Shown: positions 20,656 through 20,891 of the stretch, piece by piece | Position numbering within the stretch: the first letter of the stretch is position 1 | Layout: every line of letters starts with the position of its first letter | Source: Candidatus Peribacteria bacterium | GTDB taxonomy: Bacteria; Patescibacteriota; Gracilibacteria; Peribacterales; Peribacteraceae | DNA length: 54,386 nucleotides | Assembly (NCBI GenBank): GCA_009691405.1 | Contig: SICN01000007.1 | Location: 1-54,386 of the forward strand | Direction: 5' to 3' | Translations under genes and position numbers: made by a program | The notes under the pieces: generated by a model | Databases searched by the model: none | The model's input: the letters and a program-made list of their open reading frames with translations, nothing else | Told to the model about the DNA's origin: nothing

Positions 20656-20683
20656 TTGACTAAAAATACAGGTTTGCTATACT
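20656..20683 (+). promoter_or_regulatory. Sigma70-type promoter of a small RNA unit (TTGACT-16-TATACT)
   Basis: A near-consensus -35 TTGACT (20656-20661), a 16-nt spacer and an extended -10 TGC TATACT (20678-20683) predict a transcript from about 20690. A strong intrinsic terminator follows 35 nt further on, so the unit is very short. It is divergent from the GT2 gene promoter. Confidence 0.7.
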
Positions 20684-20689
20684 GAGTGT

Positions 20690-20750
20690 GTCGAGTCCTT
20701 CGTACCCCTCTGGGGAAAAGAATCCCACCCCTTTACGGGGTGGTTTTTTT
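20690..20750 (+). ncRNA. Putative ~60-nt small RNA with tRNA-complementary 5' end
   Basis: Between the promoter at 20656-20683 and the terminator at 20725-20750 lies about 35 nt. It begins with a stretch (20689-20702) identical to 20808-20821, that is, complementary to the anticodon arm of the minus-strand tRNA-like gene at 20771-20841. A small CCCC/GGGG hairpin follows. No Rfam family comes to mind. A GTG-started open frame crosses the terminator into the tRNA region, but it is not protein-like. A regulatory RNA or the remnant of a duplicated tRNA are both possible. Confidence 0.5.
20725..20750 (+). terminator. Intrinsic terminator of the small RNA unit
   Basis: CCACCCC (20725-20731) pairs with GGGGTGG (20737-20743) around a 5-nt loop and is followed by seven T residues. 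No plus-strand gene ends nearby, which supports a dedicated short transcript. Confidence 0.85.
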
Positions 20751-20770
20751 GTTACAAAAAATTACCGAGC

Positions 20771-20841
20771 TGGTGGACCGTGGGGGAATCGAACCCCAGC
20801 GAAGGAATGTCGAGTCCTTCGCACCAACCTGGTCACGGCCC
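20771..20841 (-). tRNA. Aberrant tRNA-like gene, apparent anticodon CGA, possibly tRNA pseudogene
   Basis: On the minus strand a 7-bp acceptor stem (GGGCCGT with ACGGTCC), discriminator A, encoded CCA and a normal T-loop (GGTTCGATTCC) are clear. The rest is unusual: the D-arm is only about 12 nt (ACC/GGT stem). The anticodon arm is an 8-bp perfect stem (GCGAAGGA with TCCTTCGC) around an 8-nt loop CTCGACAT. Total length is 68 nt plus CCA. If U33 is the loop T, the anticodon is CGA (Ser), but the long serine variable arm is missing and position 37 is C. It could be a noncanonical tRNA, a pseudogene or a tRNA-like regulator. Confidence 0.6.
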
Positions 20842-20891
20842 CCGTGCTCGGTAGTACGATCGTACACCCATGTATGGAATTTACCAATTCT

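Follow-up and report, generated by a model that had tools for sequence, protein, structure and literature searches.

The window, by which we mean the whole stretch of 54,386 nucleotides analysed here, carries what is probably a two-RNA module, in which a mimic of transfer RNA (the tRNA-like RNA, TLS) is silenced by its own antisense small RNA (sRNA); transcription, alanylation, and the role of the sRNA as inhibitor are inferred. Five components of this proposal are strongly supported: the TLS structure, the covarying complementarity between the two RNAs, the placement of promoters, the mostly pair-specific matching, and the syntenic presence or absence of the module. A bolder reading, on which we judge the balance to tip neither way, is that these RNA-only modules are phylum-wide, that each alanine-charged mimic acts on translation as a toxin or stress brake, and that each is guarded by a mostly specific antisense RNA unfolding it via the anticodon loop and D-arm; charging and toxicity are inferred.

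The TLS of the window, an alanine-type tRNA mimic of 71 nt, lies on the minus strand at positions 20771..20841, with G3.U70, A73, and an encoded CCA, and is matched by a covariance model at 97.5 bits (E 2.8e-19). Positions 20768-20848 fold as a cloverleaf (-40.1 kcal/mol, z = -3.2) with an 8-bp acceptor stem, a short D-region (ACCA-GGT-TGGT), a TTCGATT T-arm, an encoded ACCA end, and an arm consisting of an 8-bp anticodon-like stem topped by the 8-nt loop CTCGACAT. The whole TLS is enclosed by an outer stem (CCGAG/CTCGG), identified as an inverted repeat and by folding, the 5' half of which (TACCGAG) is found at 20847..20853 and the 3' half (CTCGGTA) at 20763..20769, both on the minus strand; a U-rich tract follows the 3' half on the same strand (20756-20762). 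The window TLS is reported neither by ARAGORN nor by the Rfam tRNA model, and no Rfam 15 family reaches its gathering score in the window module. The weak Rfam matches of the TLS include mascRNA-menRNA (RF01684), which scores best among them (16.7 bits against a cut-off of 42.5), and tmRNA (11.8 bits).

On the plus strand, an sRNA transcription unit extends from promoter to terminator (20656-20750) and would yield an RNA of ~60 nt. Its sigma70-type promoter (20656..20683) combines a -35 TTGACT, a 16-nt spacer, and an extended -10 (TG) TATACT; a start at ~20690 is predicted, transcription being inferred without expression data. The strong terminator (20725..20750, CCACCCC-TTTAC-GGGGTGG-TTTTTTT) looks terminator-like on the minus strand too. 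The 5' end of the sRNA is a seed (20689..20702) that is the perfect complement of the TLS loop and the 5' strand of the anticodon stem; the complementary TLS segment (20808..20821, minus strand) takes in the 5' strand of the stem plus the greater part of the 8-nt loop. The 14-nt repeat that underlies this complementarity (20689-20702 = 20808-20821) is exact and belongs to a larger repeat of 25 nt (20689-20713 / 20808-20832) that has 84% identity and reaches the D-arm. The weaker antisense extension into the TLS D-arm (20703..20713, plus strand) rests on this larger repeat and on duplex prediction, and also forms part of a small hairpin. RNA co-folding gives -69.2 kcal/mol for the window duplex versus -58.1 kcal/mol for the sRNA and TLS apart, and the duplex is predicted to run from the TLS loop via the 5' stem strand to the D-arm.

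A preliminary description of the locus, made from the sequence alone, had named a TTGACT-16-TATACT promoter, a strong terminator, and a ~60-nt transcript, all of which held as sequence features. Its 14-nt identity held exactly, and the weaker similarity that it saw continuing into the D-arm held as the 25-nt repeat. The complementarity that it claimed to the anticodon arm was upheld in part, as the pairing takes in the loop, only the 5' side of the stem, and some of the D-arm. The minus-strand tRNA-like gene also held, refined to a tRNA mimic that probably accepts alanine and is not an evident decoding tRNA.

A DNA search revealed a second, different module (G000:C9) in the 1.01-Mb genome of the window (G000), as well as relatives in other genera. 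A covariance model of the TLS (R1), built from seven sequences, found TLSs throughout the class, with strong matches across numerous families, and a single genome often has two to seven; the weak tail of R1 matches consists largely of real tRNAs, judged by length. Since R1 was seeded with members carrying G3.U70, it is biased toward finding such members. We extracted 111 TLS loci for comparison. Where the matched genomes are named, they are MAGs of Candidatus Peribacteria and Peregrinibacteria, and groundwater is the source of several. Sampling of 20 loci beyond the class showed an arm copy at the promoter start in 19, in tandem and shortly after the TLS (two of these copies are short, at 8-9 nt). 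The module recurs across the phylum, and the TLS is found in many Patescibacteria, often with several in a genome.

Across these loci, the RNA-RNA pair is very likely under selection for complementarity, with the proviso that transcription is inferred in the absence of expression data. At 94 of the 111 loci, the 5' half of the arm is repeated exactly for >=9 nt no more than 300 nt away, and at least eight further loci have an imperfect copy in the correct place; approximately nine of the 111 TLSs have no recognizable sRNA, two of them at contig edges. The cognate arm match has a median length of 13 nt, compared with a mean of 7.3 nt when arms are swapped among the 111 loci, and matches of >=11 nt are found for 70% of cognate arms, 0.8% of swapped arms, and 1.9% of non-cognate arms from the same genome. 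Arms vary between loci, even inside one genome, and the copies change along with them. Ranked by duplex energy, 79 of 93 sRNAs pair best with the TLS of their own locus. Cross-pairing within a genome remains possible to some degree; the second sRNA of G000 scores -40.1 kcal/mol against the window's TLS.

Past the exact seed, the first mismatch is G.U in 51 cases, A.C in 16, and a transversion in 31, and Watson-Crick pairing continues at 47.5%, versus 28% in shuffled comparisons. This combination of a G.U-biased first mismatch and continued pairing is unlike the expectation for a neutral DNA duplication. Taken alone, the wobble excess past the first mismatch (0.59 versus 0.55 shuffled) is inside the shuffled range.

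The copies are also flanked by transcription signals. A strong -10 hexamer is located upstream of the copy at 76% of 86 loci, mostly 4-7 nt ahead, versus 7% of random positions, and a T-run is located downstream at 92%, versus 46% at random positions; as arms were scanned for the best copy, these promoter figures hold only where one was found. The unit takes one of three layouts, being placed on the 3' side of the TLS and directed toward it, on the 5' side and directed away, or in same-strand tandem, and the RNA is antisense to the TLS in each. The sRNAs of one family (f1) have in addition a WTCGAAYCCC-like motif complementary to the TLS T-arm, the core of which, CGAAY, stands just before the terminator in 19 of 28 f1 sRNAs (1.7 expected) and in 2 of 66 sRNAs elsewhere. 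Pairing of CGAAY with the T-loop is possibly a second, invariant TLS contact, with support in family f1 only; it is not evident in the window's own sRNA.

The TLS itself is maintained as a structure. In 102 aligned sequences, 94.5% of cells are paired, 600 cells show double changes (203 when shuffled), and the covariation score is 0.709, versus 0.179 after shuffling and no more than 0.093 after sliding. Despite this variability, G1-C72, G2-C71, G3.U70, and A73 are nearly invariant (G3.U70 is present in 107 and G2-C71 in 108 of the 111 loci), whereas pairs 4-8 vary; an NCCA-type 3' end with A73 is found in most of the 111 loci, and the tRNA-like elbow is kept. Bacterial alanine identity is determined by A73, G2-C71, G3.U70, G4-C69, and G20 (PMC9976931). 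The TLS meets the criterion of an alanine-type acceptor (A73, G2-C71, G3.U70), toward which the model seeds are biased, and we infer from these identity elements that AlaRS can charge it; alanylation as such is inferred. An arm with a stem of ~8 bp and an 8-nt loop is commonest across TLS loci, and the loop consensus at the 49 loci with a clear 8-nt loop, N-U-Y-G-N-C-A-N, is a YUNR-type U-turn. Such loops speed sense/antisense pairing, as in hok/Sok and RNAII/RNAIII (PMC6562991), and the TLS loop may likewise be shaped for recognition by the sRNA.

The two RNAs appear to be controlled differently. The predicted TLS promoter of the window (20859..20887, minus strand) has a -35 TTGGTA (20887-20882), a 17-nt spacer, and a -10 TACGAT (20864-20859), and a palindrome, GTACGATCGTAC, covers the -10 box (20854..20865) as a probable operator. 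The same arrangement characterizes the window's family, in which the TLS promoter is TTGNNN-16/18-TACGAT with GTACGATCGTAC across the -10; a TTG is found 16-18 nt ahead of the TAC hexamer at 14 of 17 loci, versus a background of 8%. Because the palindrome spans the -10 box, a repressor is suggested. Other families have 11-bp direct repeats upstream of the TLS (lag-11 identity 0.413 versus 0.309, with lag 22 also elevated). Direct repeats of 11 bp are typical of PhoB/OmpR-type regulators, and the PhoB/PhoP-like repeats therefore suggest induction by a response regulator. The sRNA promoter appears from its sequence to be constitutive in most loci; at L014, L120, and L125, the palindrome overlaps it. 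By analogy, a constitutive antisense RNA with a regulated target would follow the common logic of antisense-guarded toxins.

Several observations concern these control elements individually. Outside f1, the TLS promoter has PhoB/PhoP box-like tandem repeats of 11 bp ahead of it, for example at L098, L107, and L116. The palindrome resembles a lux box. Near-copies of GTACGATCGTAC are found at G000:C13:33230-33241 (L026) and G000:C1:76907-76918 (L025); of the near-copies in this genome, one precedes a membrane-protein-like frame and one is at a contig end, and they are possibly further sites of the same regulator. A LexA-type reading of GTACGATCGTAC was considered and rejected, as no recA/lexA-like gene was seen at the other genomic near-matches (reading frames were judged by eye).

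Pfam scans of 179 neighbouring proteins returned mostly unrelated housekeeping genes and no recurrent protein partner. One narrow pattern scan of viral contigs for phage carriage gave no match, by which carriage is not excluded. At L007, the TLS is directly before a FemX-like frame, recognized by sequence only, which we take to belong to a family using aminoacyl-tRNA; such a frame is not a recurrent neighbour at other loci. Two congeners of the window's organism are informative. In G001, the same two flanking genes are only ~30 nt apart and the whole module is absent, and in G002 the module is present at the syntenic site; with one site empty and the other occupied, both RNAs come or go together. 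The arm in G002 differs from that of the window by a wobble-compatible change, and a covariance search found no convincing TLS anywhere in G001.

In this view, RNA 1 is the TLS (minus strand), a regulated mimic of ~71 nt with the alanine acceptor identity set and a tRNA elbow, in which the normal D-arm and anticodon arm would be replaced by a smaller D-region and a long arm that evolves freely and is topped by a U-turn loop. RNA 2 is the sRNA (plus strand), a short transcript from a consensus sigma70-type promoter. The 5' end of the sRNA would contact the U-turn loop, invade the 5' strand of the anticodon stem, and proceed into the D-arm, thereby destroying the tRNA-like fold; degradation of the duplex would be the likely next step. 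The sRNA would hold the mimic off until the latter is induced, putatively through the operator or the 11-bp repeats, and the free mimic may then load on AlaRS, EF-Tu, or SmpB and disturb or pause translation. We regard the TLS as the effector because it has conserved functional features, whereas the sRNA conserves little except seed and terminator; that control runs from sRNA to TLS, and not the reverse, is inferred from this conservation.

The preliminary description had offered two readings of the repeat. For one of them, an antisense RNA that targets the anticodon arm of a tRNA, the support is strong and comes from phylum-wide covariation, from where the promoters lie, and from mismatches that preserve wobble pairing; the other, a duplicated tRNA half, may describe how the sRNA arose and not its present constraint. 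Two outcomes had been named in advance as refuting: a close relative with the tRNA-like gene and without the repeat, and a repeat that drifts while the tRNA stays fixed. Neither was obtained, as G002 keeps both RNAs, G001 has neither, and arms and copies change together. Of the checks that it had proposed, a search of relatives found the promoter-repeat-terminator unit beside the TLS in many Patescibacteria, and covariation between the two copies is evident from cognate versus swapped arms at the 111 loci. Its remark that no such family was known held as well: the open-access literature searched, with preprints and closed journals outside the scope, describes no tRNA-like effector paired with a dedicated antisense RNA that covaries with it. 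Control by antisense RNA has long been known; a tRNA mimic as the target of an antisense RNA that covaries with it is, to our knowledge, new. If the proposal is true, a large and little-studied phylum carries an unannotated class of RNAs, either regulatory or selfish, of which one genome may have several, and tRNA mimicry joins the RNA-only control systems. It would also make available a large natural collection of RNA-RNA pairs, most of them specific, and offer a tangible way into the study of how translation is controlled in Patescibacteria.

Known classes of RNA accommodate the module only partly. A decoding tRNA was rejected, since the ~8-bp stem and 8-nt loop do not fit the 5-bp anticodon stem and 7-nt loop expected of one, and both ARAGORN and Rfam missed the window TLS; the few relatives that ARAGORN called have inconsistent anticodons, and in an Rfam scan of 17 related loci a single TLS reached the generic tRNA cut-off. 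The tRNA-like domain of tmRNA shares with the TLS an alanine-type acceptor, a reduced D-region, a T-arm, and the lack of a normal anticodon arm. In contrast to tmRNA, the TLS has no reading frame, is 71 nt long, and has a closed arm with a variable loop, and it does not meet the tmRNA criteria (the RF00023 match is weak and there is no mRNA-like domain with a tag frame). A tmRNA replacement or split tmRNA was rejected because the genus itself and most relatives have full, tag-bearing tmRNAs, and SmpB is present in 56 of 58 relatives; because most relatives have complete tmRNA and SmpB, the TLS is not the tmRNA of these organisms. In the 94%-complete assembly G000, no full tmRNA was found, though SmpB is present and congeners have tmRNA; an assembly gap is the likely reason. 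SmpB contains TGA codons in some families of the class, and in-frame TGA codons are expected in Gracilibacteria. The mascRNA/menRNA family resembles the TLS in being small and tRNA-like with a reduced D-region; these RNAs derive from mammalian long RNAs and are not known to have an antisense partner.

Antisense-regulated systems offer closer parallels. In type I toxin-antitoxin and plasmid copy-control RNAs (hok/Sok, pIP501 RNAII/RNAIII), the antisense RNA likewise contacts a YUNR U-turn loop (PMC6562991), but the targets are mRNAs, whereas the module's target is a non-coding tRNA mimic. CreTA is RNA-only and its toxin acts on tRNA supply (PMC8501985), as in the proposed module. However, CreA needs Cascade/Cas6 and acts on a promoter, and CreT carries a mini-ORF, whereas the module's effector is itself tRNA-like and its guard a plain antisense RNA; the criteria for CreTA are not met, as there is no Cas family within the 25 most frequent neighbour families and the TLS is not a mini-ORF RNA. 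SdsR/RyeA also comprises two mutually acting small RNAs of one locus, of which the antitoxin is transcribed from a sigma70 promoter and the toxin from one under different regulation (PMC6610125). It differs from the module in that SdsR does not resemble a tRNA and the two RNAs are encoded in cis to each other; the module RNAs are separate units in any orientation, and their copies covary phylum-wide.

Among the readings of what the module does, our first choice, albeit one that we are slightly inclined to doubt, is an RNA-only toxin-antitoxin system in which the free alanylated mimic would be toxic, through misdirected alanine or through occupation of AlaRS, EF-Tu, SmpB, or ribosomes, and the sRNA would be the antitoxin; toxicity is inferred. 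In its favour, the modules are stand-alone, multi-copy, mostly pair-specific, and patchy, without a protein partner and with a clean empty site; the antisense RNA has a consensus promoter and the TLS a promoter with operator or 11-bp repeats; and SdsR/RyeA of E. coli is a known small-RNA toxin/antitoxin pair (PMC6610125). Against it, some TLSs seem to persist without an sRNA. The architectural criterion (two RNAs, one locus, antisense complementarity) is met, and we have not filed the module as toxin-antitoxin because only this half is met, toxicity being inferred.

A second choice, which remains possible, is that the TLS is of benefit to the cell as an inducible donor of alanine or modulator of translation, with the sRNA setting a threshold that confines its activity to stress; examples would be tRNA-dependent alanylation of cell wall or lipids and ribosome rescue with SmpB. 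The conserved alanine identity set and elbow, the regulated-looking promoters, the frequency of SmpB among relatives, and the FemX-like frame after the TLS at L007 speak for it. However, no neighbour from any such pathway recurs, a single donor function would not call for two to seven modules per genome whose arms differ, and G001 has no convincing TLS.

A third reading, which we consider unlikely, is that the sRNA regulates mRNAs in trans via its 5' seed and that the induced TLS titrates it as a sponge. The free 5' seed and terminator do resemble those of trans-acting sRNAs, and tRNA-derived sponges exist (e.g. 3'ETS-leuZ in E. coli). Yet seeds differ among related species and among the modules of one genome, so mRNA targets would have to follow, and conservation of G3.U70, A73, and the elbow would be unnecessary for a sponge.

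A DNA duplication or recombination scar beside a tRNA-like pseudogene, without RNA function, is all but excluded: direct repeats beside tRNA genes are commonly attachment-site scars, which favours it, but the fixed promoter distance, the terminator, the antisense relation kept in all three orientations, the wobble-type first mismatches, the strong TLS covariation, and the recurrence across the phylum oppose it. A chance repeat is ruled out by cognate versus swapped-arm matches, promoter placement, the mismatch pattern, and the second module in G000.

Within the TLS loci, a minor structural variant was seen at L074 and L110, where a short hairpin is apparently inserted in the 3' acceptor strand of the TLS and CTCCACCA resumes afterwards.
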